A DNA stretch of 58,126 nt from a virus, in the IMG/VR virus record IMGVR_UViG_3300001847_000530, positions 1 to 58,126 of that record; one strand, 5' to 3'. Positions 1,678 to 54,287 of this stretch are shown piece after piece; positions within the stretch are counted from its first letter, which is position 1, and each line of letters opens with the position of its first letter. The notes beneath the pieces were generated by a model that saw only the letters and a program-made list of their open reading frames with translations, was not told the DNA's origin and searched no databases. Position numbers and translations under genes: made by a program.

Positions 1678-1683
1678 TTGACT

Positions 1684-2391
1684 ATGAAAGTTTTCAAGGA
1701 AATCAAGCAGAACATAAAGTATGCTTTGCCAGAGATTCTTAAACTGCGCAATTCTGCACAGAAAAAAGAAGATGGTAGCTACGTCACCGGCGGCGATCTG
1801 TATGCAGATACAGTCATCGCCAATACTATTCGTCTGCATTATCCAAGTGCAATTATAGTTTCTGAGGAAAACAAACAAGAAGAACTCGATTACGATGCTA
1901 TCGGCTCAAACGATATCTTCGTGGTCGATCCGATTGATGGCACTGAAAACTTTACTTCTGGTTTACCCGAATGGGGTATTTCGATCAGTCATTACTCCAA
2001 AGGCAAGCATGCTGCATCTATGCTGTGGTGCCCAGAACTGAATTTGTGGCTTGACAGTAAAAAGCCAAAGACTATGCCCACGAGTCGATCACGCATCGCT
2101 GGTATTTCCTCATCGATGCGCACTGAAGATCTGATGAATGTGACTCCTGGGTATGAGTACCGTATGTTCGGCTGCTGCGTTTACAGCATGATTCAGACAG
2201 TCCGTGGATCTTTTGTCTCATTTGAGAATCCGCGCCGTGCTAATTCCTGGGACATTCTTGCTGGTCTGAACATTGCACGCATCAATGGATTGTCAGTAAA
2301 GGTCAACGGGTATGACTACACCGGTGACTATCTGCATTCATCTGTAAAGTATAGTTTCAGAATCGAACACCCTGTTCAGCATGCCAATTGA
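1684..2391 (+). CDS. Inositol-monophosphatase-family phosphatase
   Basis: 235 aa, near the usual 250-270 aa of the family. The metal/catalytic motif VVDPIDGTENF matches the IMPase/FIG/CysQ signature DPIDGTxNF, and an upstream acidic EE (VSEENKQEE) supplies the first metal ligands. The second signature near the C-terminus is weak (NSWDILAGLNIARINGLSV corresponds to WDxAAGxxLLxxAG). ATG 1684 is preferred over an in-frame TTG at 1678 because it lies 6 nt after the -10. Its 3' end overlaps neuB by 11 nt. In this context it may dephosphorylate a sugar intermediate (a nonulosonate-9-phosphate or a sugar phosphate); that role is inferred. Confidence 0.8.
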   Translation: MKVFKEIKQNIKYALPEILKLRNSAQKKEDGSYVTGGDLYADTVIANTIRLHYPSAIIVSEENKQEELDYDAIGSNDIFVVDPIDGTENFTSGLPEWGISISHYSKGKHAASMLWCPELNLWLDSKKPKTMPTSRSRIAGISSSMRTEDLMNVTPGYEYRMFGCCVYSMIQTVRGSFVSFENPRRANSWDILAGLNIARINGLSVKVNGYDYTGDYLHSSVKYSFRIEHPVQHAN

Positions 2392-3241
2392 TCTGGTAAA
2401 TCCTTCGCGTGCGCTGATTGTTGCTGAGCTGACGAACAATCACCTGGGCAACAAAGACAATCTTATGGAGATGGTCAGATTGTCTAAGCAGTCAGGTGCT
2501 GATCTGATCAAAGTTCAGAAGCGCGATGTCGATAGCTTCTACACCAAAGATCAGCTCAACTCTCCATACGAGTCTCCATTTGGCACCACGCTAGGTGACT
2601 ATCGCCGCGGCGTTGAGCTGAACGACGAGCTGCTGGATGTGCTTGAGCAGACCTGTGTGGAAAACGACATCGAGTGGTTCTGTTCAGTGCTTGATTATCC
2701 GTCATACTTGGCGATCAAGCGCTTCAATCCTCGGCTGATCAAACTTCCTTCCACGATCTCGAATCATCGGACGTATATGCGAGCTCTTGCTAAAGAATAC
2801 GCCGGCACGCTTGTCGTTTCTACTGGCTACACTGATAAGAGCTACGAGGACTACATTCTGGAAACATTTCCACAGAATCAAATTTACCTGCTGCATTGTG
2901 TATCAGCATATCCTACTCCGCCAGAGCACTGCAATGCAGCTGTGGTCCAACATTACGCTAAAAACTTGAGCAAGCACGACATCATTCCAGGTTATTCTAG
3001 CCATGATGAAGGATCACTTGCATCGCAACTTGCAGTTGCTGCTGGTGCGCGAATGCTCGAGAAGCACGTGAAATTAGACAATTCCAACTGGATTCATTTT
3101 GACAACGTGGCAGTGAATCTTCGCAAAGGAGATTTCGCAAAGTACGTTGCAGACATTCGTCACGCCGAGACTATTCTCGGTTCATCTGAAAAGCAGGTAC
3201 TGTCCTGCGAGCATCACAAATATGGCCATGACATCCGATAA
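2381..3241 (+). CDS. neuB: NeuB-like N-acylneuraminate/nonulosonate synthase, TIM-barrel only
   Basis: 286 aa. It condenses PEP with an N-acylmannosamine-type sugar to make a nine-carbon nonulosonic acid. The active-site string of the family is intact in order: IVAELTNNHLG, DLIKVQK, CSVLDYPS, IKLPS, VVSTGYT, LLHCVSAYPTPPE, GYSSHDEG and LEKHVKLD. Typical NeuB proteins are about 345 aa with a C-terminal SAF (antifreeze-like) domain; here the chain ends after the barrel. Overlapping start (11 nt with the IMPase) and overlapping stop (with neuA) indicate one operon. Confidence 0.88.
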   Translation: MPIDLVNPSRALIVAELTNNHLGNKDNLMEMVRLSKQSGADLIKVQKRDVDSFYTKDQLNSPYESPFGTTLGDYRRGVELNDELLDVLEQTCVENDIEWFCSVLDYPSYLAIKRFNPRLIKLPSTISNHRTYMRALAKEYAGTLVVSTGYTDKSYEDYILETFPQNQIYLLHCVSAYPTPPEHCNAAVVQHYAKNLSKHDIIPGYSSHDEGSLASQLAVAAGARMLEKHVKLDNSNWIHFDNVAVNLRKGDFAKYVADIRHAETILGSSEKQVLSCEHHKYGHDIR

Positions 3242-3905
3242 TATCTGCGCTATCGTTCCGGTTCGTGCTGGATCAAAGCGCGTGCCCGACAAGAACATTC
3301 GTCCGTTTGCAAGCAAAAGTCTGCTTCAGGTGAAGCTTGAGCAGTTGCTGCAGGTATTCTTAGCTAAAGACATCGTTGTCAGCACTGACTGCGGATATTC
3401 TGCAACGCTTGCTAGCGATGTCGGCGTGACAGTATTATGGCGCCCGTCTGAAATGGCATCAGATACTGTCTCGATGAGCGATGTCTACAAGTATCTTGCA
3501 GAGTCAGTAAAGCACGAGCATATTCTGTTTACTCACGTTACTAATCCTCTGTGTGATGCTCAGGAATATCTGACAGCTATCAGCCTGTATAAGAATCTTA
3601 CCTCTGGCTATGATTCGATCACCACGATCAGCTACCTGAAAGATTTCCTCTACACGCCAGATGCTAAGCCGCTCAACTTCGACCCGCTGAACAAGCCGCG
3701 TTCGCAAGATCTGCCAAACTACTTCAAGCTTAACCATGCGATTTCTATACTGCCACGCGAGATGATGATTGCTCAGAAAAACATCGTGGGCACATCGCCA
3801 TTTTTTCTGGAAATCTCAAACGTCGCAGCAATGGATGTCGATACGTTCTTAGACTTTCAGATCGCTGAGTATGTTTACAATCAGGAACGCGCTCACTATC
3901 CTTGA
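3222..3905 (+). CDS. neuA: CMP-nonulosonate (CMP-N-acetylneuraminate) synthetase
   Basis: 227 aa, the usual length for bacterial CMP-sialate synthetase domains. The P-loop-like N-terminus IVPVRAGSKRVPDKNIRPF is the diagnostic NeuA/PseF motif, followed by VVSTDCG and FTHVTNPLCDAQEYL. It activates the NeuB product with CTP, giving the donor for a transferase. Two candidate ATGs lie at 3222 and 3228; both are inside neuB (overlap 14-20 nt). There is no Shine-Dalgarno sequence. The acid could be Neu5Ac, pseudaminic or legionaminic acid, and the sequence does not decide. Two nearby enzymes with possible sugar roles are the IMPase and the GT-like protein. Confidence 0.85.
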   Translation: MAMTSDNICAIVPVRAGSKRVPDKNIRPFASKSLLQVKLEQLLQVFLAKDIVVSTDCGYSATLASDVGVTVLWRPSEMASDTVSMSDVYKYLAESVKHEHILFTHVTNPLCDAQEYLTAISLYKNLTSGYDSITTISYLKDFLYTPDAKPLNFDPLNKPRSQDLPNYFKLNHAISILPREMMIAQKNIVGTSPFFLEISNVAAMDVDTFLDFQIAEYVYNQERAHYP

Positions 3906-30454: not shown

Positions 30455-31075
30455 ATGAATACCACTAAAATTATGGCTAATCCACTGGTTGAAATGTTGA
30501 GCGGAGAAAAGAAACCTCAGAACGCCTTTACCGAAAAGTCCCTTGCTCATCTACACGAGTACTATCTCGTGGGCCATGTCGAGGAGCCCAGCAAGTATAC
30601 CGAGTGGTTCAATCAGATTCGCCATGCCACGCCGAACGATCTGATCAAGATCTACATCAATTCGTACGGCGGCGACCTGTGGACAGCTATTCAGTTCATT
30701 CGCGTGATTCGCGAGACTAAAGCACCGGTTGTAGTTTCTGTCGAGGGTGCGTGTATGAGTGCAGCAACGATCATCTTTCTGATGGCTGACAGCCATGAAA
30801 TCTCGCCACACTCCATGTTTATGTTCCACAATTATTCTGGCGGAACAATTGGTAAAGGTGGCGAGATGATCGATCAGATCAAGCACGAGCGCAAATGGTC
30901 GCAAAAGCTGCTGATGGAAATCTATGAGAATTTTCTAACAGCTGACGAGATTCAGGCAATCCTAAATAACAGGGACATCTGGATGACAGCAGAAGAAGTC
31001 GTTGCACGATTGAACAAGAAGGCGAAGTCACTGAAGAAAACGGTCAAAGCTAAGAGCAAAAAGACAGAAGAATAA
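30455..31075 (+). CDS. ClpP-like serine protease
   Basis: 206 aa, close to bacterial ClpP. INSYGGDLWTA corresponds to the substrate-binding loop, VEGACMSAATIIFLMAD contains the nucleophilic Ser (about 102), and MFMFHNYSGG has the His (about 125). The third residue is not obvious by eye. No signal peptide. The C-terminal tail is Lys-rich (KKAKSLKKTVKAKSKKTEE). It could act in head maturation, as proposed for phage ClpP families, or with a host Clp ATPase; a phage tmRNA is encoded 5 kb away. Confidence 0.85.
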   Translation: MNTTKIMANPLVEMLSGEKKPQNAFTEKSLAHLHEYYLVGHVEEPSKYTEWFNQIRHATPNDLIKIYINSYGGDLWTAIQFIRVIRETKAPVVVSVEGACMSAATIIFLMADSHEISPHSMFMFHNYSGGTIGKGGEMIDQIKHERKWSQKLLMEIYENFLTADEIQAILNNRDIWMTAEEVVARLNKKAKSLKKTVKAKSKKTEE

Positions 31076-33329: not shown

Positions 33330-33414
33330 GCCGTAGTGGCTCAGCGGCAACAGCACTGGTTTTGTAAACCAGCGGGGTAACCCTACATCGGTTCGAGTCC
33401 GATCTACGGCTCCA
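33330..33414 (+). tRNA. tRNA-Thr(TGT)
   Basis: Acceptor GCCGTAG/CTACGGC, anticodon stem CTGGT/ACCAG with loop TTTGTAA (anticodon TGT), T-arm ATCGG-TTCGAGT-CCGAT, discriminator T, encoded CCA. Unusual 14-nt variable region with a small GGG-TAA-CCC stem, unlike ordinary class I Thr tRNAs. Confidence 0.85.
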
Positions 33415-33419
33415 CTTAA

Positions 33420-33508
33420 GGAAGGGTGGCAGAGCGGTTTAACGTGCTTGTCTTGAAAACAAGAGTGGCTAATCCCCACCGTGAGTTCGAATCTCACCCC
33501 TTCCGCCA
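33420..33508 (+). tRNA. tRNA-Ser(TGA)
   Basis: GGAAGGG/CCCTTCC acceptor, anticodon loop CTTGAAA (TGA), long class II variable arm, T-loop TTCGAAT, discriminator G and CCA. Confidence 0.93.
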
Positions 33509-33573
33509 TTTACTAACCTAATCATTGGCTCCAATGTGCGTTTGGGCACTGAAATGCCAGTGGAAATTTTTTA
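33509..33573. other. Spacer with terminator-like hairpin
   Basis: CATTG/CAATG hairpin, then CACT...AGTG followed by GAAATTTTTT. May be a weak terminator or processing site between tRNAs. Confidence 0.3.
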
Positions 33574-33649
33574 GGGCCATTAGCTCATTTGGCAGAGCGC
33601 CTGATTTGCATTCAGGAGGTGAACGGTTCGACCCCGTTATGGTCCACCA
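33574..33649 (+). tRNA. tRNA-Ala(TGC)
   Basis: GGGCCAT/ATGGTCC acceptor with one G-U, anticodon stem CCTGA/TCAGG, loop TTTGCAT (TGC), discriminator A, CCA. Confidence 0.93.
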
Positions 33650-33653
33650 ATTT

Positions 33654-33728
33654 GCACGGGAAGTCAAACGGTCAGACACCAGTTTGCAAAACTGCTATTA
33701 GCGAGTTCAACTCTCGCACCGTGCTCCA
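33654..33728 (+). tRNA. tRNA-Cys(GCA)
   Basis: GCACGG/CCGTGC acceptor (seventh pair mismatched), anticodon loop TTGCAAA (GCA), T-arm GCGAG-TTCAACT-CTCGC, discriminator T as usual for Cys, CCA. Confidence 0.88.
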
Positions 33729-33733
33729 TTTTC

Positions 33734-33809
33734 GCGGTAGTAGCTCAATTGGCAGAGCGCCATCCTTCCAAGCTGGATGTTGCAGGTTCGAGCCCTGTCT
33801 GCCGCACCA
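33734..33809 (+). tRNA. tRNA-Gly(TCC)
   Basis: GCGGTAG/CTGCCGC acceptor, anticodon loop CTTCCAA (TCC), stem CCATC/GCTGG with one T-C mismatch, discriminator A, CCA. Confidence 0.9.
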
Positions 33810-34000
33810 ACTTTCTGGTCGAAAGACTGGAAATGGTGGAGGGTGTGAATCCTTCACTCCCCTAGAGAGAAACAGTCAATCTCTTTAAATCGACTGCCGA
33901 ACCGAAGCGCGTGCCTTCGGTGTATGTCACGGGCGCAGACGAACAGTGAGGCTTGCATATCCTCGGCGCCACTAATTTTGAACCTGAAAAAGTTGTAGCG
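33810..34000. other. Unexplained spacer in the tRNA array
   Basis: About 190 nt without a convincing gene. It contains hairpins (CTTTC/GAAAG; CCGAAG-N7-CTTCGG near 33900) and ends CTCGGCGCCAC, but no tRNA fold. A minus-strand ORF across it is rejected. Confidence 0.4.
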
Positions 34001-34008
34001 CATAAATA
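34001..34008 (+). promoter_or_regulatory. Late promoter (CATAAATA) of the HNH gene
   Basis: CATAAATA with the ATG 9 nt after its last base, identical to the spacing at 21537. Confidence 0.65.
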
Positions 34009-34016
34009 CTTGTACT

Positions 34017-34526
34017 ATGTCATTTTCTAACGAACAGGTTTTTTGCGTCAATAGCACCTATGCGCGTCATCTCATTAAGAAGCGCTTAATAGTTCAGAAG
34101 CTAATTCCATACGAGTGTTGCGAATGTAAGAATAGCGGTGAATGGAATACTAAGCCATTAGTTCTTCAGTTAGATCATAGCAATGGAATTAACAACGATA
34201 ATCGTTTAGAAAATCTTAGATTTATTTGCCCAAACTGCCATTCTCAGACTGAAACGTATGCTGGAAAAAATAGCGCTGGTGTTAGACATCGCAAGATAAA
34301 ACCTAATTTTAGAGCAGAAAAAAGAAAAAGAGATAAAGATTTACTAGAAAAGATAAAAGCAGATCCATCGATTAGATTTGGCGAATGGGGATGGAAAACA
34401 CGATTTGCTGAAAAGCTTAGCATTTCGCCCCAGAAAGTCGAAAAATGGATTGCTAGAGTAGATCACGATTTTTACATCACGGTAGCTCAATTTGGTAGAG
34501 CTGCGGCCTCCAAATCCGCAGGTTAA
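34017..34526 (+). CDS. HNH homing-type endonuclease inside the tRNA array
   Basis: 169 aa. CCECKNSGEW, LVLQLDHSNGINNDNRLENL and FICPNCHSQTETY form the HNH zinc-finger core; the C-terminal region (ISPQKVEKWIARV) may be a helix-turn-helix. AT-rich with many AGA codons, unlike neighbours. The last 17 codons run into tRNA-Trp, so its stop lies inside the tRNA gene. Such enzymes often insert at or target tRNA loci. Confidence 0.85.
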   Translation: MSFSNEQVFCVNSTYARHLIKKRLIVQKLIPYECCECKNSGEWNTKPLVLQLDHSNGINNDNRLENLRFICPNCHSQTETYAGKNSAGVRHRKIKPNFRAEKRKRDKDLLEKIKADPSIRFGEWGWKTRFAEKLSISPQKVEKWIARVDHDFYITVAQFGRAAASKSAG

Positions 34527-34552
34527 AGGTTCAAGTCCTTTCCGTGATGCCA
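34476..34552 (+). tRNA. tRNA-Trp(CCA)
   Basis: ATCACGG/CCGTGAT acceptor, anticodon loop CTCCAAA (CCA), T-loop TTCAAGT, discriminator G typical of Trp, CCA. Overlaps the 3' end of the HNH gene by 51 nt. Confidence 0.9.
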
Positions 34553-34560
34553 CTTTATGT

Positions 34561-34687
34561 AGGGATGCTGGTACCAGAAGGCGAGATGCTGCGCGCGCGA
34601 GGCAGTCAAAGCCGATGGTTTGAAGTTGTGCCTAGTGAGTGGCGTACCACTCTAGAGTTGCAGGTTAGAGTCCTGCCGTCCCTGCCA
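34561..34687 (+). tRNA. Aberrant tRNA-like element, 127 nt
   Basis: Acceptor AGGGATG (34561-34567) pairs with CGTCCCT, followed by G and CCA; T-stem GCAGG/CCTGC is perfect but the loop TTAGAGT lacks the invariant C56. The middle is about 40 nt too long: AGGCA and TGCCT could form an anticodon stem closing a 24-nt loop, followed by a GAGTGG-CGTA-CCACTC hairpin. No anticodon can be assigned. Degenerate tRNA, an interrupted tRNA or a tRNA mimic. Confidence 0.5.
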
Positions 34688-34692
34688 AATTT

Positions 34693-34767
34693 GCCGCCAT
34701 CGTCTAACGGTTAGGACAAATCCCTTTCACGGATGCAATCGGGGTTCAATTCCCCGTGGTGGTACCA
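34693..34767 (+). tRNA. tRNA-Glu(TTC)
   Basis: GCCGCCA/TGGTGGT acceptor with two G-U pairs, anticodon loop CTTTCAC (TTC), T-loop TTCAATT, discriminator A, CCA. Confidence 0.9.
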
Positions 34768-34785
34768 CTATACATATTTTGTCAA

Positions 34786-34863
34786 CGGCGCGTAGCACAG
34801 TCTGGCTAGTGCGCTACATTTGGGATGTAGAAGTCGCAGGTTCAAATCCTGCCGCGCCGACCA
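34786..34863 (+). tRNA. tRNA-Pro(TGG)
   Basis: CGGCGCG/CGCGCCG acceptor starting with C as in Pro tRNAs, anticodon stem CTACA/TGTAG, loop TTTGGGA (TGG), discriminator A, CCA. Confidence 0.93.
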
Positions 34864-34864
34864 T

Positions 34865-34939
34865 TGACTCATGGTGTAATGGTCAGCACAGCTGACTTTG
34901 ACTCAGCTAGTTGGGGTTCGAGTCCCTGTGAGTCAGCCA
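34865..34939 (+). tRNA. tRNA-Gln(TTG)
   Basis: TGACTCA/TGAGTCA acceptor, anticodon stem GCTGA/TCAGC, loop CTTTGAC (TTG), discriminator G, CCA. Starts 1 nt after tRNA-Pro. Confidence 0.92.
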
Positions 34940-34942
34940 CCC

Positions 34943-35019
34943 GTCCTCGTAGCTCAACCGGATAGAGCACCGGTTTTCTAAACCGGTGGTTGTGGGTTCG
35001 ATCCCCGCCGAGGGCGCCA
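34943..35019 (+). tRNA. tRNA-Arg(TCT)
   Basis: GTCCTCG/CGAGGGC acceptor, anticodon stem CCGGT/ACCGG, loop TTTCTAA (TCT, reads AGA/AGG), discriminator G, CCA. AGA is rare in most genes here but common in several apparently acquired segments. Confidence 0.93.
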
Positions 35020-35028
35020 TTATACTTT

Positions 35029-35229
35029 ATGAAAAAGTTACTTATATTGTCAGCGATTGTATTGCTTTTAGGCGGATGTATTTCTATCTGCGAAGATCAT
35101 CCTGCAGTTAGAATATACCGTTCTTATCAGCCGCAGTATATTCATCACGAAGTTGTTCCGATCCGCACTCCTCAGTACATCGGATATCGTGATCGGTTTG
35201 GTACGCTACATCTGTGGCCGGCACAGTAA
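35029..35229 (+). CDS. Small lipoprotein between tRNA genes
   Basis: 66 aa from ATG 35029. Signal with lipobox VLLLGGC (Cys about 16); the mature part has Tyr/His/Arg (IYRSYQPQYIHHEVVPIRTP). An upstream in-frame start would lie inside tRNA-Arg and is rejected. Possibly envelope-acting (Rz1-like by size), unproven. Confidence 0.6.
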   Translation: MKKLLILSAIVLLLGGCISICEDHPAVRIYRSYQPQYIHHEVVPIRTPQYIGYRDRFGTLHLWPAQ

Positions 35230-35231
35230 TC

Positions 35232-35312
35232 GCCCTAGTGTTGAAATGGCAGACAAGACAGTCTTAGAAGCTGTTGCCTCATGGCGTGCAGGTTCAAGTC
35301 CTGCCTAGGGCA
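35232..35312 (+). tRNA. tRNA-Leu(TAG), no encoded CCA
   Basis: GCCCTAG/CTAGGGC acceptor, anticodon stem ACAGT/GCTGT, loop CTTAGAA (TAG), class II variable arm, T-loop TTCAAGT, discriminator A followed by CTT instead of CCA. The only canonical tRNA in the array without CCA. Confidence 0.88.
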
Positions 35313-35313
35313 C

Positions 35314-35764: not shown

Positions 35765-36136
35765 GGGCGCGTTCTGGATTCTACTTAAATGTGGCCTTCT
35801 GGGAAGCAAGCATGGATACTACGATCCATTCAACATCGTGGAAAAACACAAACGGCATTTCTAATATGCTCAAGAGCCTCTTCGCTGTCAATCAGCAGGA
35901 AGCTCAACTCGCAGCCTAAGCAGCTGTGAATGAAGTCGACGCGATACTCGCTGATGTCGACTTCATCATCTAGCGAGTCTGCTTGTTCGGTTGGTGACGT
36001 TGCGAACAAGCAGTACTCAATGTCACGTACTTCATCGTTCTGCGCAGAGTTCGATGTCGCATTACCTGCGATAAGCTTGTAGAAACTTAGCGGAAAATAC
36101 TTAAGCACAGGGGTTCGACTCCCCTCGCGTCCACCA
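35765..36136 (+). ncRNA. ssrA: tmRNA (one-piece)
   Basis: 5' end GGGCGCG (35765-35771) pairs with CGCGTCC before ACCA at 36133-36136 (one G-U). The tmRNA D-domain string GTTCTGGATTC follows the acceptor and the T-arm is AGGGG-TTCGACT-CCCCT. An internal open frame ends ...NQQEAQLAA with TAA at 35917-35919, a typical proteolysis tag end; the resume codon is probably GGC near 35854, giving a tag of about 21 residues. Length 372 nt is normal. It would rescue stalled ribosomes and tag nascent chains. Confidence 0.93.
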
Positions 36137-36404: not shown

Positions 36405-36412
36405 GCAAACAC

Positions 36413-36447
36413 AACTCTGCCATGCTTGTGGTGGCAGAGTTCCTTTT
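36413..36447 (+). terminator. Rho-independent terminator
   Basis: AACTCTGCCA (36413-36422), 9-nt loop, TGGCAGAGTT (36432-36441), then CCTTTTG. Ends the tmRNA/36216 unit. Confidence 0.85.
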
Positions 36448-36471
36448 GTTCTAAATTTTTCCATTTTCCTG

Positions 36472-36499
36472 TTTACACGGACCCGCCGCCGTGTATTGT
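36472..36499 (+). promoter_or_regulatory. Promoter of the giant RNA
   Basis: TTTACA (36472-36477), 16 nt, TATTGT (36494-36499), the same class as the early promoters; predicted start about 36506. Confidence 0.6.
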
Positions 36500-36505
36500 T
36501 CTATA

Positions 36506-37440
36506 TGTTCTTTTGATAACAACATTTTTGTGACGGAATAAACCATTCTAATGGGGTTAACGTATGCACCACGTGAAGAACGTGGTGCAGTTTCCGAATC
36601 GATTAGTAAGTAAGGTACTATGCTGAGGCTTAGGTTGGCCAACCGAAGCTACCAGAGGTATGGCTCGTAAGCTTGAATATAGAATGACAAGCGAGTCATT
36701 ACGGTGCGGCGGCATCAATTGTCTGAATAACAGAAACTCGAAGCTGGAATGGAGGTAATCATTAATCCTCCCAATTTATTTTCATCATACTCGACTAGGC
36801 GAGTCTAAACAGAAGTATAGGCCTAGTGCGGCGGTACAGAAATGTGCCGCGACTTGCCACGCCTTGGTTCCGCTGTGCACCGGATTAAATTCTGATTAAA
36901 ATCCAGTTACCAAGAAAAATAAGTACGAGACAAAGGCTGCGGTTTCAATAGCAGAAACGCCGCATATAAATCTCGTTGCTCAAGCTATGAGTTAGCGTGG
37001 CACCCAATTTTGTTCTTTACATTAGAATTTCTTGGTGTGGCCTTTAACCAGCAAATGCGCTGTTAGCGGTCGTATTCATCGAAGTCAGCAACATCAGAAT
37101 AGCAGGACAGCTATGATGCCAAGTGGCTAATTACGACGGATGGTATGCGAAACCCGGATGTTAAGACCCGCTGTTAACTAAAATGGTCTCATCCAGTGAC
37201 AGTAATGTCTAGCAGAGCCCAGGACAACATCGATGAGCAGCCACATCAAGAATGTAGACGACACGTGGAAATACACCTCATCAGCATGAAGATGGGGAAG
37301 CTTCCTCTCGGTCTGAACCTCGCGCGGTAGAAAGATTCCGCGGCGTTTGCTAGCAAATGATGCGTACTATCGACAAATGATGGCGAGTACCCGCAATACG
37401 AGGCTCTGGAAGTTCGCAAAGACCGTTCCACATCTACCTG
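36506..37440 (+). ncRNA. Giant structured non-coding RNA (GOLLD/ROOL-like candidate)
   Basis: About 930 nt with no credible ORF and dense self-complementarity. Hairpins include TGCACCACGT/ACGTGGTGCA (36565-36589), GGAGG/CCTCC, ATGAC/GTCAT, GCGGTAC/GTGCCGC, CTTGGT/ACCAAG enclosing GGATT/AATCC, ACGAGA/TCTCGT enclosing GTTTC/GAAAC, GACA-GTAA-TGTC (GNRA loop), CCTCATC/GATGGGG and CGCGG/CCGCG. The loop ACTAGG (36794-36799) of the ACTCG/CGAGT hairpin can pair with CCTAGT (36822-36827), a pseudoknot. Location next to phage tRNAs and the size fit the GOLLD and ROOL classes. Boundaries are approximate; no terminator at the 3' end, so it might extend into the leader of the adhesin gene. Confidence 0.7.
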
Positions 37441-37459
37441 ATCTATAGATACAAACGTT

Positions 37460-38968
37460 ATGACAAAACAAACCAACAAACAAACCGCACGCAGATTGCT
37501 CTCTAGCATTCTGCTTTCTGTGTTTACAGCTACTGCTCTAGCATTACCTAGCACAGATCCTACTAACCTGCAAACCTCGGCCGGCGTGACCGTTCTGCAA
37601 GCAACGAATGCGCTGACGATCACTGCACCAAACCGTGCTGTCCTGAACTGGACAAACTTCGGATCCGGAACGGACACGATTTCGCGAAGTGACTTGCTGA
37701 CATATCAGCTGCCTGATGCAAAGTCATCAGTACTAAATATCGTCACTGGTTCTGCACAATCGATGATCGATGGATATATTTCCTCAAATGGAAAAGTTTA
37801 TATCATCAATCCTAACGGCATTGTCATCGGAGCAAATTCGCGCTTTGATGTGGCCTCGCTAGCACTATCTGCTAGCGATAATCCAGTAGCTGCTCAGCTG
37901 CAATACCTGCGTGATGGTACTGTTCCATCCGAGGTTGGAATTCGGAGCGCATTTGGCTCGCTGACAGTCAATAGCTCAGCAATGATTCTAAGCCCAAACA
38001 TCACGCTTCTTGCCAAGAATGTATATGTCGGTGCTGCGATGTTCGGTGGTGCAACCACAATCAATGCTGACGGAGATGTCCAGCTTGGTGTGCAAGGCGG
38101 CTCGACGGTCTTCGGAGGTCTGACAATCACCAATGCCAGCGGAAATACAGTGCTGAGCATGGCAGGATCGACAGTCAATTCAACTGGTCCAATCGTTGCA
38201 ACCAGTGATCGTGGTAATGTTCTCAGTCAGGCAGGATCGCGCCTTGTGACTAAGAATCTAACTGTTACCTCGAATTACGGTGCTGTCAATCTTGGTGCTG
38301 ACGGTGCTCTGATTACAACCGCAACCGCTCCAACAGTCACGATTGCTCTTGATGGTCTGACACCTAATCCATCAGTTGGTGGATCTTCGACTGGCGCATT
38401 TGCTGTGACATCACCCGCATCTTTCAAGGTTGATGGAGTTACTGGTGTCAGCAATTCGCCATTCAGCTTTACGTCTGGCGGAGATCTTACACTGGGTGCT
38501 GTTCACCTTGATGTGACCAGTGCAACGACGTTTGCAGGAAAGACAGTCACAGATACCACAAACGGAATCTTCGTTTACGGCCCAGTGCTGTTTTCTGCTA
38601 CTGGTGGAGATATTTCAATCACCAAAGGCAATCATAGCTTTGGTCCTGTCAGCGTATTTGCCAACGGAAATGCGACAGTTTATGAAGCTGCTGCTCTCAA
38701 TTTGAATACTGTCAATGTCAAGAATCTTGTGCTGAAAACAGGAGAATACTTTTTTCAGACACCGACAACAGCAAGTCTCTTAGCCAATTCTTTCAATTTG
38801 ACTGCCTCAGGTGCCGTTTCATTGTTTACTGGAAACATCGCCTCGGGTCTTACGATCAGTGCCGGTTCATCAAGTGTAGATCTGAGCAGACTCAGTATTG
38901 CCACGAATTTGAACGGCATCGCACCAACAGTGACAACGACCGGTGCTGTTGGACAACCTAATCCTTAA
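37460..38968 (+). CDS. Filamentous-haemagglutinin-type TPS-domain exported protein
   Basis: 502 aa. A signal peptide (LLSSILLSVFTATALA) precedes a two-partner-secretion domain: AITAPNRAVLNWTNF-like strand (ALTITAPNRAVLNWTNFG), then SSNGKVYIINPNGIVIGANS, the hallmark NPNG(I/V) motif. The rest is repetitive beta-helix sequence (GNVLSQAGSRLVTKNLTVTS; VTDTTNGIFVYGPVLFSATG), far shorter than bacterial haemagglutinins. It should adopt a beta-helix on the cell surface or virion; no TpsB-type partner with POTRA domains is visible in the window. Confidence 0.85.
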   Translation: MTKQTNKQTARRLLSSILLSVFTATALALPSTDPTNLQTSAGVTVLQATNALTITAPNRAVLNWTNFGSGTDTISRSDLLTYQLPDAKSSVLNIVTGSAQSMIDGYISSNGKVYIINPNGIVIGANSRFDVASLALSASDNPVAAQLQYLRDGTVPSEVGIRSAFGSLTVNSSAMILSPNITLLAKNVYVGAAMFGGATTINADGDVQLGVQGGSTVFGGLTITNASGNTVLSMAGSTVNSTGPIVATSDRGNVLSQAGSRLVTKNLTVTSNYGAVNLGADGALITTATAPTVTIALDGLTPNPSVGGSSTGAFAVTSPASFKVDGVTGVSNSPFSFTSGGDLTLGAVHLDVTSATTFAGKTVTDTTNGIFVYGPVLFSATGGDISITKGNHSFGPVSVFANGNATVYEAAALNLNTVNVKNLVLKTGEYFFQTPTTASLLANSFNLTASGAVSLFTGNIASGLTISAGSSSVDLSRLSIATNLNGIAPTVTTTGAVGQPNP

Positions 38969-38974
38969 TAAATA
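38967..38974 (+). promoter_or_regulatory. Late-type promoter (AATAAATA)
   Basis: AATAAATA overlapping the adhesin stop, with the next ATG 8 nt after its last base (38982). Confidence 0.55.
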
Positions 38975-38981
38975 GTTAAGT

Positions 38982-39644
38982 ATGAAAAAGCTAATCGCAT
39001 TGTTTGCTGCGCTATCTTCGATTGCAGCAGCTCAAGTCACAACCGAACTGACAGCAGGTTACCGCTCGAAGGATTTTTCTTTCGGTAAGGTAGCATCTAC
39101 TGTCAGCGCTTATACCACTACTGCTGATATTCGCATCAATAGTTTTCGCCTGGGTACAAGCGTGCAGGATCAACTGACACTCAAGAGCTCAAAGTTGTAT
39201 CAGCTCGATTTGATCGGCGGATACAAGTTTTTCTCATCTCTTGCTGATGTCGAGTTTGGAACGAGGTATGTCACTAAGGGCATCTTTGCCAAGTACGATA
39301 TGAAGAATCACTGGCGCCCATTCGTGGAAGTCAGCAAAGGTATCTTCAGTGTCCGCAGTCAGATGGATCTTGAGGCTAAGACATCGAACATCGAGGGCGC
39401 GCTGAAACGTGCTCTTCCGCTCGGTGCTGGTTTCAAGTTCACGCCATCTGTTTATGTCGGATATACCGATGCGAATGACGCACTGCCACACACCATCAAG
39501 GAAATCAAGTACACCAACGTGTACTACGGTGGTTCTGGCGATGTCTCATGGAAGTGGGCTACAGCTGGTCTGTACACGATCCATACCAAGATCGACAAGA
39601 AATACACCAACGGCTATCGTGCTGGTGTTGCTCTGAAGTTTTGA
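38982..39644 (+). CDS. Outer-membrane beta-barrel-like protein
   Basis: 220 aa. Signal peptide (MKKLIALFAALSSIAAAQ), then alternating amphipathic strands (TELTAGYRSKDFSFGK, LYQLDLIGGYKFF, VEFGTRYVTKGIF, WATAGLYTIHTKIDK) and a C-terminal VALKF with terminal Phe, the outer-membrane insertion signature. Probable small barrel; whether it exports the upstream adhesin is unknown, and it lacks POTRA domains. Confidence 0.75.
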   Translation: MKKLIALFAALSSIAAAQVTTELTAGYRSKDFSFGKVASTVSAYTTTADIRINSFRLGTSVQDQLTLKSSKLYQLDLIGGYKFFSSLADVEFGTRYVTKGIFAKYDMKNHWRPFVEVSKGIFSVRSQMDLEAKTSNIEGALKRALPLGAGFKFTPSVYVGYTDANDALPHTIKEIKYTNVYYGGSGDVSWKWATAGLYTIHTKIDKKYTNGYRAGVALKF

Positions 39645-48678: not shown

Positions 48679-49005
48679 ATGACAGACGAGATCAGCACGT
48701 TCAAGATGATGGTAAACCAGTACGGGTTGCCGATCATGGCAGCTGGCGGCATGGGATACTTCATTTATTTTGTCTGGAAATTCGTCACGGAGAACATCAA
48801 CACTGAGTTGTCCAACGCGAAGAAAACGATGATTGAGCTGATCGACAGGATTAGAATGCTTGATAATGATTTGATCAGGTTAGAGCAAAAAATCAATACG
48901 GCTATTGAAGTCCAACGAGTCAAAGATGAAAAACCAAAAACAGCATCCGTCATCGAACAGTCTGATACTAATAGTAGTGTTCCTCCTCCTGCTATTTTGT
49001 CTTAG
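48679..49005 (+). CDS. Membrane helix plus coiled coil (paralogue-like)
   Basis: 108 aa. Membrane segment GLPIMAAGGMGYFIYFVWKF, then a helix KTMIELIDRIRMLDNDLIRL echoing the previous gene's MNNDLVRIDAL, then a disordered tail. Its last 80 nt overlap csgF. Confidence 0.5.
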   Translation: MTDEISTFKMMVNQYGLPIMAAGGMGYFIYFVWKFVTENINTELSNAKKTMIELIDRIRMLDNDLIRLEQKINTAIEVQRVKDEKPKTASVIEQSDTNSSVPPPAILS

Positions 49006-49447
49006 CGTGCTTCCACAGTGTGCTTTGCGCGGCTCGGATATGACATACAGTTTCAAGTCGCCTGCGTTCAACGGAATCGGATACTCTGCACACGAGATCA
49101 CTATCGAGAATATCTCGCGTACTCGTAAGCAAAACATCCAGGATGTTGCAAAGGCTGAGGCGGAAAACCTGAAGCTTGCATCTCAGAATACTCCTCTGAA
49201 CAACTTCATCGTCAATCTGCAGGCGCGCATTTACTCGCAGCTGGCCTCGCAAGTCACAGATCAGATTTTCAATGGCAGCGCGACGTTTGGTGCGATCAAT
49301 CTGCAGGGCGGTGCTACAGTAACTTGGGTGCGCTCGGGTGACATTGTGACTCTTTACATCGTCGATCCTGCCACGGGAAATATGACTTCAATTCAGGTAC
49401 CAGTCGGAAGTCTGGCACCTGCTACAACGACTCCGCCTACCGGCTGA
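48926..49447 (+). CDS. csgF: CsgF-like curli assembly factor
   Basis: 173 aa from ATG 48926 (a TTG at 48905 is less likely). N-terminal signal (SLILIVVFLLLLFCLSVLP); the mature start MTYSFKSPAFNG matches the conserved CsgF N-terminus (MTFQFRNPNFGG) that inserts into the CsgG pore. Further matches: LNNFIVNLQARIYSQLASQV to the helix, and DIVTLYIVDPATGNMTSIQV to the C-terminal sheet. It has an extra 25-residue helix compared with E. coli (138 aa). In curli systems CsgF couples secretion to nucleation outside the cell. csgG follows after 3 nt. Confidence 0.88.
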   Translation: MKNQKQHPSSNSLILIVVFLLLLFCLSVLPQCALRGSDMTYSFKSPAFNGIGYSAHEITIENISRTRKQNIQDVAKAEAENLKLASQNTPLNNFIVNLQARIYSQLASQVTDQIFNGSATFGAINLQGGATVTWVRSGDIVTLYIVDPATGNMTSIQVPVGSLAPATTTPPTG

Positions 49448-49450
49448 TCG

Positions 49451-50275
49451 ATGAAGAAACTGCTAACAGCCACACTACTGCTATCTTTACTTTTTAGCGG
49501 CTGTGCTTCAGTTTCGCGCAGTCCACGCATTCTTGAAATGCCGCGACTGCAGGAAAGCCCGCTACAAAAGCAGCTGTTCGCGCTGCCTGCAATCGATGGC
49601 TCAAAGATCACGATTGCTGTCTATAACTTCGCAGACAAGACTGGACAGCGCAAGACTGTAGATACCTACGCATCGTTTTCATCAGCAGTTACTCAAGGCG
49701 CAGACAGCTGGCTGATCGATGCGCTGCGCCTGGCTGGAAACAATCATTGGTTTCAGGTGCTCGAGCGTTCCTCGCTGGACAATCTTGTCAAGGAACGACA
49801 GCTCATCGCGCAGACTCGCGAGTCGTTTCAAGGCAAGGATGCAGAAAAGCTTTCACCGCTGCTGTTCGCGGGCATCATCGCAGAAGGCGGAATCATCGGA
49901 TACGACACTAACGTCTTTACTGGTGGCGCGGGCGCAAGCTTGCTGGGTATTTCGAGCTCGACACAGTACCGCAAAGATGTAGTCACTGTTTCCCTGCGCT
50001 TCATTTCAGTACAGACAGGCGAGGTGATGCTCTCAACAGCAGTGACAAAGACAATTACCTCGGTTGCTCTTTCAGGCAACCTATTCAAATTTTATGAGCA
50101 TGGAGTGACACCAGCAGAATCAGAACTAGGGTTCACAGCAAACGAGCCGAATACAATCGCGGTACGTTCTGCTATCGACCAAGCAGTGATTGAAATCATC
50201 AATCAAGGCGCTAAGACTGGCCTCTGGAAATTCGCAGTGACAGGTAAACCACAACCAACCAACCAAAGCAAATGA
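49451..50275 (+). CDS. csgG: CsgG-like curli secretion pore lipoprotein
   Basis: 274 aa, same length as E. coli CsgG (277). Lipobox LLFSGC (Cys 18). Conserved blocks: ITIAVYNFADKTGQRK, VTQGADSWLIDAL, WFQVLERSSLDNLVKERQLI, IIAEGGIIGYDTNVFTGGAG, TQYRKDVVTVSLRFISVQTG and VGYTSNEP-like LGFTANEPN. The constriction loop reads VDTYASFSSAV where E. coli has PYPASNFSTAV: the Tyr and Phe remain but the Asn is lost and the loop is one residue shorter. It should assemble as a nonameric outer-membrane channel. Overlaps the curlin gene by 4 nt. Confidence 0.93.
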   Translation: MKKLLTATLLLSLLFSGCASVSRSPRILEMPRLQESPLQKQLFALPAIDGSKITIAVYNFADKTGQRKTVDTYASFSSAVTQGADSWLIDALRLAGNNHWFQVLERSSLDNLVKERQLIAQTRESFQGKDAEKLSPLLFAGIIAEGGIIGYDTNVFTGGAGASLLGISSSTQYRKDVVTVSLRFISVQTGEVMLSTAVTKTITSVALSGNLFKFYEHGVTPAESELGFTANEPNTIAVRSAIDQAVIEIINQGAKTGLWKFAVTGKPQPTNQSK

Positions 50276-51078
50276 AAAATAAAGTCGTAGCGCTATTCAC
50301 CCTGCTTTTGCTCCTCACTGCGACAACTCGAGGACAGAATCAGATCTACGTGAATCAGATCACCACGAGTGGCACAACCACTCTCGTTCAGGTAGGAAGC
50401 CTGAACAAAATCGGCTCCTCGCAGACACCAAGCGACATCACGGGAGACAACATCGTCTTTGAAATGCGTCAGATCGGTGACAGCAATACGACTGACTTCT
50501 CGATTGCTAGCGCGAACAACCTGAAGTTCATCTCGGCATATACTGGCAACAGCAACACGCAGAAGTACTACTTCAGCGGTGCTAGCAACAATATGAACTT
50601 CTCGGTGGCAGGCAACAGCAACTCGTTCTTGCTGAACAAGGATACCACAGTAGATCATACCTCGAATACTGACAGCTCGAAAGCCACACTTCAGAACTCA
50701 GACCTGAAGTTTACTGTCACGGGTAATTCCAATACCTTCAAGTTCGCAATCGACTCAGGTAAATACAACTACCTCGATTACAACATCACGGGCAACTCAA
50801 ATACCATCAAGTCCACACAGATCGGCAATACCTCTGGATCTGCTGCTAAGGACGGGCATGAGCAGACAGTCAACATCACTGGATCTTCCAATGATCTGAC
50901 AATCTATCAGGCAGGTATCGAAAAGCAGCTGTTTAACTACACGCTGACAGGATCAACGAACACCGTGAAGATCGTGCAGACACAGGCAGGTTATGCTCCA
51001 GTAATGACTACAACTGGAACAAATGGCCCTGCGGGAACAGCACAGACCACAAATTCGATTACTCCTCCAACACAGTAA
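50272..51078 (+). CDS. Curlin-like repeat protein (CsgA/CsgB-type amyloid subunit candidate)
   Basis: 268 aa. Signal peptide (VVALFTLLLLLTATTRG), then at least eight imperfect repeats built on G-x-(S/T)-N followed by alternating residues and often Q-x-G: IGDSNTTDFSIA, TGNSNTQKYYFSG, AGNSNSFLL, TGNSNTFKFAID, TGNSNTIKSTQIG, TGSSNDLTIYQAG and TGSTNTVKIVQTQAG. Curlins use S-x5-Q-x-G-x-x-N-x5-Q. The match is looser here, but the neighbouring csgF and csgG make it the natural substrate. Confidence 0.8.
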   Translation: MKNKVVALFTLLLLLTATTRGQNQIYVNQITTSGTTTLVQVGSLNKIGSSQTPSDITGDNIVFEMRQIGDSNTTDFSIASANNLKFISAYTGNSNTQKYYFSGASNNMNFSVAGNSNSFLLNKDTTVDHTSNTDSSKATLQNSDLKFTVTGNSNTFKFAIDSGKYNYLDYNITGNSNTIKSTQIGNTSGSAAKDGHEQTVNITGSSNDLTIYQAGIEKQLFNYTLTGSTNTVKIVQTQAGYAPVMTTTGTNGPAGTAQTTNSITPPTQ

Positions 51079-51087
51079 GATTTAGTA

Positions 51088-52230
51088 ATGAATAGTAAAG
51101 CCGCTATTGCGATCATAGCCATGGCGGCTTTTTTGTCTGCGCACGGAGCGGTGGGTAAGATGGATACTGTCACTGGCCCAACTCAGATCGCGCGCGGCAA
51201 GGAGAAGATCGAAGGCAAGAAAGATACAGATGTCGAGATGAATGACTCTGTCGAGACGCTGAAAGCGCGTGTCGGTATTACCTTTGAGGACAACACGAAG
51301 ATGCAGGTGACAGAATTCTCAAAGCTCAAGATCGATGAATTCGTGTACGATCCCAAGTCAGGTAAAGGTAGTCTTTCTATCAAAGCAGCATTTGGCACAG
51401 TTCGGTATGCATCAGGAGCAATCGCAAAGAATAGCCGCGAGAACGTCAAGGTGCAGACACCGACAGCAAAGGTATCAGTACGCGGCACAGACTTCTCGAT
51501 GACTGTCTCGGAGGATGGCAAAAGCTTGATCGTGCTACTGCCATCGATTCCAAAAGCATCAGGTTTGCCACCGGTTGTCGGTGAGATTACTGTCTCAAAT
51601 CTGGGCGGTTCTGTGCTCATGAATCAGGCATATCAGGCCACATTTGTATCCTCGCAGAACACAGCACCCACACCACCCGTGGTACTCGACTTTCAGGACG
51701 AATCTAAGATCAATAATATGCTGATCGTGGAAACACCGCGTCAGGTTACTCAGGCAGTCAAAGAACAAAAGAAAGAAAAGCAACAAACACAAAGCACCGA
51801 TGATGAAGACAATAAGCCCAAAAAGAAAGACACAAAGACTGCAATTACTCAATCTGATACGCCGCCGGCTACTGCAACAGTGGCTGCACAACAAGCAACA
51901 ACGACTGACAATACTCAGCCAGTGACCACAGATCTGAACATCAATGCTATTCAGCCGCAGGTGCTACAGAATGTAGCAACCGTAATTGAAAAGGCTCAGC
52001 CGCCAGCTCCTCCACCAAATTTGGTTGTTGGTACTGCTGTAGTCAATACTGGGTGGGCATCTGATGGCACGAATGCCACACTGCTGATAGACAATAATGG
52101 CAATGTGGTGCAGTATTCGACAAAGGCGAACGCCAATCTCTTGATAGATATTACGACAGATGAAGGCACTAAATCATACCCGCTGAATTTCGGTGATAAA
52201 CTAAAGGTGAACATCACGCAAAAGAAATAA
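51088..52230 (+). CDS. FecR-domain periplasmic protein
   Basis: 380 aa. Signal peptide (AAIAIIAMAAFLSAHGAVG), then a FecR domain: TGPTQIARGKEKIEG, GITFEDNTKMQVTEFSKLKI, IKAAFGTVRYASGAIAKN and VQTPTAKVSVRGTDF (VRGTDF at 131-136 is diagnostic). A Gln/Lys-rich, disordered linker (residues 215-300) and a short C-terminal beta domain follow. No N-terminal cytoplasmic segment, so it is not a classical FecR anti-sigma factor; free FecR-domain proteins are often neighbours of CHASE2 proteins, as here. Stop overlaps the cyclase start (TAATGA). Confidence 0.85.
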   Translation: MNSKAAIAIIAMAAFLSAHGAVGKMDTVTGPTQIARGKEKIEGKKDTDVEMNDSVETLKARVGITFEDNTKMQVTEFSKLKIDEFVYDPKSGKGSLSIKAAFGTVRYASGAIAKNSRENVKVQTPTAKVSVRGTDFSMTVSEDGKSLIVLLPSIPKASGLPPVVGEITVSNLGGSVLMNQAYQATFVSSQNTAPTPPVVLDFQDESKINNMLIVETPRQVTQAVKEQKKEKQQTQSTDDEDNKPKKKDTKTAITQSDTPPATATVAAQQATTTDNTQPVTTDLNINAIQPQVLQNVATVIEKAQPPAPPPNLVVGTAVVNTGWASDGTNATLLIDNNGNVVQYSTKANANLLIDITTDEGTKSYPLNFGDKLKVNITQKK

Positions 52231-54287
52231 TGAAGAAGCATCAAATCAAGATCATCGGTATCGGACTAATCATGCTGGCAGTAGCTGTTGCGCTGCGTAT
52301 CTGGGATCCATATCCGATCGAGGTGCTGCGTCTCAAAGGATTAGACTTTTATCAGCGTCAGCAACAGAAAGAAGTATCCAAGAACATTGCTGTCATTGAG
52401 ATCGATGAGGCTGCTCTCGAAAAGAATGGTCAGTGGCCCTGGCGCCGTGATGTGCTGGGTGCTGCTGTCAGCAAGGCGATGGACGCTGGTGCAAGTGCAG
52501 TGGTGCTACCTATCATCTTTGCAGAGCCTGATCGTCTGGGCGGTGATAAGGAATTCATTCAGGTGATCGAGAAGGTACCCGTAATCATTGCTCAATCTGC
52601 TGCTCAGAAAGGCAAAGGCGAGCCAGTGCCGCGCGGGTTAGCAACAATTGGCGGAAAGGCAGAAGACTGGCTGTTCGATTATCCAGCGGCAATAGGACCA
52701 ACTAGTGACATTGGTAAATCGGCTGCAGGCGTGGGCATGCTGCTGACTGCTCCTGAGCTTGATGGGGTGGTGCGTCGTTTACCGCTGATCGTGCAAGTCA
52801 AAGGCGAGAAGTATCCCACATTGCCTCTGGAGGTGCTACGCGTCTTTGGTGGAGAGGCATCCAATCAGGCCAAGGCGAATGAGGGAGGCATCGTTGCTGT
52901 GCGCGTTGCTGGAATTCCGCCGATCAGGACAGATGCAAATGCTCGCGTCTGGCTGAATATGAAGTACACCTTTGAGAGCATCTCTTACACAAAGAATGAT
53001 TGGAGTGCTGTCAAAGGAAAGATCGCAGTCATCGCGCCAACAGCAGAAGGTCTGGCCAATACTGTAGCGACACCTCTGGGTACCACATATGGATACGAGG
53101 TCAATCTGCAAGCACTGCAGATGCTGATCGATGATGCGCGTCTGGAACGCCCAGCGGAAGCTGATCTGTACGAGCTTGCAGCTGGTGTGCTGCTGTGTCT
53201 GATTGCAATCGTGACAATCTGTTACCTGAACTACATCGCTGCGGGTATCCTGTTCGTGATTATGCTAGTCGCACCAGTTCAAACTGGATTTTACCTGTTC
53301 GCGAAGCATCAATCACTCTACGATTTTACCTGGGTGTGCGGCGCGCTGATCGGATCCTGGGGTGCAGCATTGTTCTGGCGGTTCGTGATGGAATTCAAAC
53401 TGAAGCAGCAGATCAAGAAGCAATTTGGTACATACCTTTCGCCTGCCATGGTTGAAAAACTGCAACAGAATCCTGACCTACTCAAACTTGGCGGCGATGA
53501 AAGAGAACTTTCCATTATGTTCACAGATGTTCGTGGCTTCACCGCCATATCAGAACACTATGGTAAGAATGTTCAAGGGCTGACGCAGATCATGAATCGC
53601 TACATGACTGCAATGACTCAGGCGATTCTTGACAACAATGGAACGCTTGACAAATATATCGGTGATGCTCAGATGGCATTTTGGAATGCTCCACTTGATG
53701 ACAAAGAACATGCCAAGAACGCTGTGAAGACCGCGATGAAAATGTTGAAGGACTTGGATGCATTCAATGCCGAAATAACCAAAGAAGGCGTACCAGCATT
53801 TGGTATGGGGCTTGGCATCAACACAGCAACGGTTGTTGTTGGTAATATGGGCAGCACACAAAGATTTGACTATACCTGTCTTGGAGACGGAGTAAATCTG
53901 GCATCAAGACTTGAAGGTCAAAGCAAGCCATATGGCGTAAGAATTGTCCTTGGTCAAGACACAGCAAGATATGTGCAACGCGATTATCAACTGTTTGAAT
54001 TGGACAAGATTGCTGTCAAAGGAAAGAAAGAAGGAGTAAGAATATTCACTGCGCTTGAAAATGAACTTGGTGTCGCAAAAGCACACGTCTTGGTATCTCA
54101 CCAAATGTTCCTGAATGGTTACAGAGAAAAAAATTGGGATAACGCCATTTATCACGCAAAGGAACTTATGAAATACAACAAGGAACTAAAAAAGTATTAC
54201 GAGATGATGATCGAGCGCATCGAGTACCTCCGTGACAATGACCCAGGCGAAAAGTGGGATGGCGTCTACAGAGCGACCAGCAAGTAA
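52230..54287 (+). CDS. CHASE2-domain class III adenylate cyclase
   Basis: 685 aa. An N-terminal membrane segment (IIGIGLIMLAVAVALRIW), a CHASE2 sensor (about 40-310; e.g. IAVIEIDEAALEKNGQWPW), three membrane helices (about 312-390), then a cyclase domain (about 405-600). Metal Asps lie in SIMFTDVRGFT (about 433) and KYIGDAQMAFW (about 478). The substrate-specifying Lys is in TLDKYIGD and Thr in FDYTCLGDGVNLASRLEG, a Lys/Thr pair typical of ATP-using enzymes; the transition-state Asn and Arg are in NLASR. All catalytic residues are present, so cAMP synthesis is predicted. AGA codons cluster only in the cyclase-domain half. Confidence 0.93.
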   Translation: MKKHQIKIIGIGLIMLAVAVALRIWDPYPIEVLRLKGLDFYQRQQQKEVSKNIAVIEIDEAALEKNGQWPWRRDVLGAAVSKAMDAGASAVVLPIIFAEPDRLGGDKEFIQVIEKVPVIIAQSAAQKGKGEPVPRGLATIGGKAEDWLFDYPAAIGPTSDIGKSAAGVGMLLTAPELDGVVRRLPLIVQVKGEKYPTLPLEVLRVFGGEASNQAKANEGGIVAVRVAGIPPIRTDANARVWLNMKYTFESISYTKNDWSAVKGKIAVIAPTAEGLANTVATPLGTTYGYEVNLQALQMLIDDARLERPAEADLYELAAGVLLCLIAIVTICYLNYIAAGILFVIMLVAPVQTGFYLFAKHQSLYDFTWVCGALIGSWGAALFWRFVMEFKLKQQIKKQFGTYLSPAMVEKLQQNPDLLKLGGDERELSIMFTDVRGFTAISEHYGKNVQGLTQIMNRYMTAMTQAILDNNGTLDKYIGDAQMAFWNAPLDDKEHAKNAVKTAMKMLKDLDAFNAEITKEGVPAFGMGLGINTATVVVGNMGSTQRFDYTCLGDGVNLASRLEGQSKPYGVRIVLGQDTARYVQRDYQLFELDKIAVKGKKEGVRIFTALENELGVAKAHVLVSHQMFLNGYREKNWDNAIYHAKELMKYNKELKKYYEMMIERIEYLRDNDPGEKWDGVYRATSK

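Follow-up and report, generated by a model that had tools for sequence, protein, structure and literature searches.

A complete one-piece tmRNA gene with an extended tag in a T4-like phage genome and in related phages

tmRNA releases ribosomes that have become stuck and tags their unfinished products for degradation, and its gene is found in phages as well as in bacteria. Complete phage-encoded tmRNAs are described for the mycobacteriophages Bxz1, Cali and Wildcat and for Bacillus phage G, which belong to phage groups, and infect hosts, that are unrelated to those of the phage considered here (PMC4131195). Mycobacteriophage DS6A likewise carries a tmRNA-type tRNA-like domain, but its RNA has neither the tag nor the pseudoknot domain, both of which are present in the gene described below (PMC4131195). 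The aquatic, T4-like Methylophilales phage Melnitz combines a tmRNA with tRNAs, CsgG and a CHASE2-cyclase, as does our phage; its tmRNA, encoded alongside curli genes, is however of the permuted two-piece, alphaproteobacterial type, whereas ours is one-piece with a tag that starts with glycine (PMC9004378). In a survey of phage genomes, 402 of 18,146, given as 2.3%, contained a tmRNA (PMC9004378), and tmRNAs are also predicted in isolated phages of Stenotrophomonas, Xanthomonas, Alcaligenes and Tunturiibacter, one of them with a tag of 33 residues. The initial annotation of the present DNA had called phage tmRNAs rare, with Bxz1-like mycobacteriophages as the example; this cannot be maintained, as such genes are already known and are not especially rare.

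The window, by which we mean the whole 58-kb IMG/VR virus record (58,126 nucleotides), stems from an uncultured phage and contains a single tmRNA. It is called by ARAGORN at 35765-36136 (+) with the tag GISNMLKSLFAVNQQEAQLAA, and the Rfam family RF00023 of one-piece tmRNAs (ssrA) matches the identical bases over its full length (model positions 1-374 of 374) with 84.5 bits (gathering score 47; E = 2.3e-31), although this is well under the about 123-205 bits of the bacterial tmRNAs that were found. With two methods in exact agreement, the locus is a genuine and complete phage tmRNA gene, as had been proposed. We estimate at about 85% the probability that it is a functional phage one-piece tmRNA that would employ the host AlaRS and SmpB, lead to ClpXP-type degradation and play a role in lytic infection of a probable Verrucomicrobiota host. 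Neither the tmRNA nor 25 kb of window sequence had a match when the phage collection was searched at the DNA level, and the tag peptide used as a query was equally without a match. For the exact 5' end, GGGCGCGTTCTGGATTC, there were 47 matches across 84,980 bacterial and archaeal genomes, which appear to be due to chance, since ARAGORN called a tmRNA in none of the 43 loci that were scanned.

The tRNA-like domain is intact. The 5' arm of the acceptor stem, GGGCGCG (35765-35771, +), pairs with CGCGTCC (36126-36132) in all seven positions, the single G-U being pair 3, so that the alanylation identity element G3-U70 lies where the initial annotation had placed it. The T-arm, the 3' arm of the acceptor and an encoded CCA occupy 36109-36136 (+) according to the Rfam match and a stem check, with the T-stem paired in five of five positions, and the D-domain string TTCTGGATTC that had been noted before is also there. 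Pseudoknot PK1 (ATGGAT/ATCCAT and CTACG/CGTGG; 35812-35841, +) was confirmed by the stem check and precedes the tag frame at 35854-35919 (+). This frame, which was defined by ARAGORN and has homologous counterparts in the relatives, begins with the resume codon GGC at 35854, 12 nt past PK1, and encodes a hydrophobic protease signal before the stop codon TAA (35917-35919). The tag comprises 21 residues, in agreement with the earlier reading of about 21 residues ending in QQEAQLAA. The stop codon is located in the loop of helix H5 (CGCAGC/GCTGTG; 35910-35928, +; stem check).

Three H-type pseudoknots follow the tag. As the Rfam alignment is poor across PK2-PK4, they were tested apart from it, by a pseudoknot search scored as a simple count over the three structures and compared with dinucleotide shuffles. 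PK2 (35930-35978, +; S1 11 bp, S2 8 bp) and PK3 (35979-36026, +; S1 11 bp, S2 8-9 bp) were additionally supported by the stem check, while PK4 (36033-36070, +; S1 and S2 5 bp each) is the weakest of the four pseudoknots. The combined score of 99 exceeds all 150 shuffles, of which the highest reached 68. The stems were first written by eye and afterwards verified by script, and all four pseudoknots of the window gene can pair. With the pseudoknots closed and G3-U70 in place, neither of the two findings that the initial annotation had named as refuting a tmRNA occurred. The permuted two-piece form was excluded by the standard gene order and the RF00023 match, and the permuted families RF04321 and RF01850 gave no match at gathering score within the window. 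The DS6A type, which consists of the tRNA-like domain only, was excluded by the presence of both the tag and the pseudoknot domains.

A search for SmpB in the window and in ten related records, of which one has 140 kb, found none, so that the host SmpB is the likely partner of the phage RNA. A phage RNA that competes for host SmpB or AlaRS and thereby inhibits host trans-translation, as the RNA of DS6A may do, would fit phages without an SmpB of their own, and a phage form with only the tRNA-like domain does exist, a similar molecule being inhibitory to tmRNA (PMC4131195). A decoy, however, would not need a tag, pseudoknots or a protease-like end, and here the mRNA-like domain is retained with its tag frame and the full set of four pseudoknots, and the tag ends remain protease-like, which makes inhibition of the host system a highly improbable role. 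Ordinary trans-translation with host SmpB is most likely and is the simplest explanation. In this process, the host AlaRS would charge the phage tmRNA with alanine, host SmpB would bind it, and the complex would enter ribosomes that stall during infection, where the 21-residue tag ending in QLAA would be added to the unfinished protein, which would then be delivered to a ClpXP-type protease, presumably host ClpXP. The gene probably works in the phage and would be expressed there; it would be kept in the lineage beside a tRNA array, probably to sustain translation during lytic infection.

Relatives were collected with the neighboring exonuclease as query, which yielded 80 related-phage loci. 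A scan of 50 of the records with RF00023 detected five tmRNAs above the cut-off, and a search with a 3' pattern added two further contigs, so that seven IMG/VR contigs besides the window carry the gene. Most of these homologues adjoin tRNA arrays. G3-U70 together with a fully paired acceptor and T-stem is present in all five distinct phage homologues. PK1 stems equivalent to those of the window pair in the contigs L082, L085 and L149, while in L086 one stem pairs only partly. The PK2-PK4 score lies above every shuffle in four phage relatives, thus in five phages including the window, and recovery of PK3 and PK4 was incomplete across the relatives. In PK2, the S1 stems are unrelated in sequence: the 5' strand reads ATGAAGTCGAC, TAACAC, ATCATTC, CGGAATC or CGTTATAGTATA, always opposite a complementary 3' strand, and S2 keeps CTCGC/GCGAG throughout. 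As the S1 sequences change and the pairing is nevertheless kept, there is good evidence that the RNA structure is under selection. Drift has affected some sister copies, as judged from L085 (1501-1865, -), in which the frame implies an Arg resume codon (CGC) and which is missed by ARAGORN, and from L086, whose D-loop carries TTCTAGATTC. The D-loop region of L085 is longer by one base (TTCTTGGATTC). In L087 (record G049), a T4-like relative with 142 kb, the tmRNA is instead a permuted one of betaproteobacterial type with the tag ANDDVYALAA.

The tRNA-like part is 59-97% identical among the phages, and no sampled bacterium exceeds 69% identity to it. A FastTree analysis of this part grouped the phages in a clade with a support of 0.985, but IQ-TREE with a larger set did not recover this clade cleanly and gave support values mostly below 50 near the phage sequences; the alignment region is too short for such a tree to place the phages firmly. 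These data bear on the proposal that the phage has no use for the gene and merely carries what is left of a host ssrA, acquired when an element that had integrated there was excised imprecisely. The ssrA of hosts is a common integration site, and such an excision route has been suggested for Melnitz (PMC9004378). In the window, however, there is no tyrosine integrase (PF00589), and the copy is complete and has tRNAs beside it in a T4-like genome. The gene is moreover common to diverged phages, with the identities given above, pairing is kept while stem sequences change, and pairing and tag end are both conserved across the phages. We thus consider a passive remnant to be very unlikely, in favor of a tmRNA that is maintained as a functional phage gene.

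The closest comparison on the bacterial side is the one-piece tmRNA of an Opitutus-like bacterium (RF00023, ssrA; L168, tag GNTEEMPLAA), which shares with the phage gene the tRNA-like domain with G3-U70 and CCA, PK1, a tag with a Gly resume codon, H5 and PK2-PK4. Relative to this bacterial tag, the phage tag is longer by about 11 residues, which are hydrophobic and lie at the N-terminus. The tags of the phages range from 11 to 30 residues: L082, L083, L084 and L150 encode GINKALSNFFGFAEEMPLAA, L149 has the longest with 30 aa (GIVNSLKGAFAAPVAALAAFFSTEELQFAA), L085 encodes RITNMLKGLFGSAGTLAYAA with its apparent Arg resume codon, and L086 has the 11-aa tag GNFNAEYALAA. The tags of L085 and L086, for neither of which there was an ARAGORN call, were read by hand. 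A hydrophobic extension at the N-terminus, GI..N.LK..F, is common to most phage tags, and every tag ends in XAA (LAA, YAA or FAA). An XAA end is the usual ClpX-type signal. Among the four distinct extended tags, mismatches at codon positions 1, 2 and 3 number 20, 23 and 28; with this slight lean towards the third position, selection may act on the tag peptide itself. The initial annotation had described the tag as long and unlike common ones. The window tag is indeed somewhat unusual, but its length alone is not exceptional, since tags of 15-28 residues are found on the chromosomes of several Verrucomicrobiota and the predicted tag of Tunturiibacter phage Tunturi_4 has 33.

A ClpP-like protease is encoded 4.7 kb upstream of the tmRNA (30455-31075, +; Pfam PF00574, E 3.2e-14), with an intact Ser/His/Asp triad when aligned to ClpP structures, and such a gene occurs in eight of ten related records. 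As the N-terminal segment is common to phages with otherwise different tag ends, the tag could in principle be a phage-specific signal, the hydrophobic segment directing proteins to the phage ClpP-like protease or to some fate other than that of host-tagged proteins. Several observations make such a signal unlikely. L149, with its 30-aa tag on a record of 119.8 kb, has no ClpP match, whereas L086 possesses a ClpP-like gene and a plain 11-aa tag; long tags are also encoded by bacterial chromosomes, and the tag shows a weak bias between codon positions. For the first two of these reasons we do not claim a link between ClpP and tag, and the protease is a candidate partner only, at the level of a hypothesis. 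The more specific scenario that the phage tmRNA gained the conserved hydrophobic N-terminal segment and kept a host-like tag end, so that the fate of tagged proteins changed, for example through the phage ClpP-like protease, appears a little less likely still; it would apply to the tmRNA lineage of phages that probably infect Verrucomicrobiota. The natural long tags provide material for asking whether phage tags have functions besides the marking of proteins for host proteases. Marking for a host ClpXP-type protease is the outcome that we favor.

The tag ends also offer a hint to the host. About 125 bacterial tmRNAs were surveyed, most of them from the Verrucomicrobiota class to which an Opitutus genome belongs. 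The end EEMPLAA, found in the tags of L082, L083, L084 and L150, recurs in the bacterial tags GNTEEMPLAA, GTYEEMPLAA and GNYEEMPLAA, which are all Opitutus-like, and among the surveyed tmRNAs this end and its close variants (EDMPLAA and EEMLMAA) were restricted to a single Opitutus-like group, which uses a Gly resume codon too. This identity suggests that the four phages infect Opitutus-like Verrucomicrobiota or took their tmRNA gene from them. A comparison of the tag with that of a candidate host, as envisaged in the initial annotation, gave a match for these sister contigs and none for the window itself, as its own end, QEAQLAA, was not found in 384 genomes of the Opitutus class. No host tag ending in EAQLAA was found in these genomes either, two pattern matches encoding EAQFAA. 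The host of the window phage is therefore an extrapolation from its relatives, and is probably also an Opitutus-like member of the Verrucomicrobiota. Related aquatic T4-like phages that probably infect Verrucomicrobiota join the known tmRNA carriers. The points of interest are the long tag and, in the sister phages, a tag with a host-like end, which illustrates that a tag end can serve as a host hint.

The tmRNA terminates an array of 11 tRNAs that lie upstream of it (33330-35313, +), ten of which are called by ARAGORN and one by Rfam only (33654-33725). The genes around it encode UvsX, PhoH, the exonuclease, gp59, ribonucleotide reductase and a DUF6267 protein, and these T4-like neighbors place the tmRNA in a T4-like phage rather than a bacterial contig. 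A consensus scan indicated a possible intrinsic terminator (36413-36441, +), which lies downstream of the tmRNA and of a 62-aa open reading frame. The region 36405-37459, of about 1 kb, has no convincing gene and contains a Pistol self-cleaving ribozyme (RF02679; 36789-36856, +; 52.1 bits against a cut-off of 34.5), about 650 bases 3' of the tmRNA.

Beyond this region, 37460-39644 (+) encodes a pair of proteins that is unusual phage cargo: the first has 502 aa and includes a TPS secretion domain (Pfam PF05860), and the second, of 220 aa, is secreted or outer-membrane-like. As a host clue, the TPS-domain protein had weak matches only, to Verrucomicrobiota and Pseudomonadota alike, and thus names no host. 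A curli-like operon is located at 48905-54287 (+) and comprises CsgF, CsgG, a FecR protein and a CHASE2-adenylate/guanylate cyclase, together with a possible curlin-like protein at 50272-51078 that has no Pfam match. CsgG and the cyclase have relatives at 40-49% identity in Methylophilales phage Melnitz and in Pelagibacter phage HTVC008M; when genomes were scanned with the CHASE2 cyclase as query, no relative was found. Finally, an inositol-monophosphatase-like protein, a NeuB sialic-acid synthase and a CMP-sugar-synthetase-like protein are encoded in succession at 1678-3905 (+), and these genes possibly constitute a sugar nucleotide pathway in the phage.
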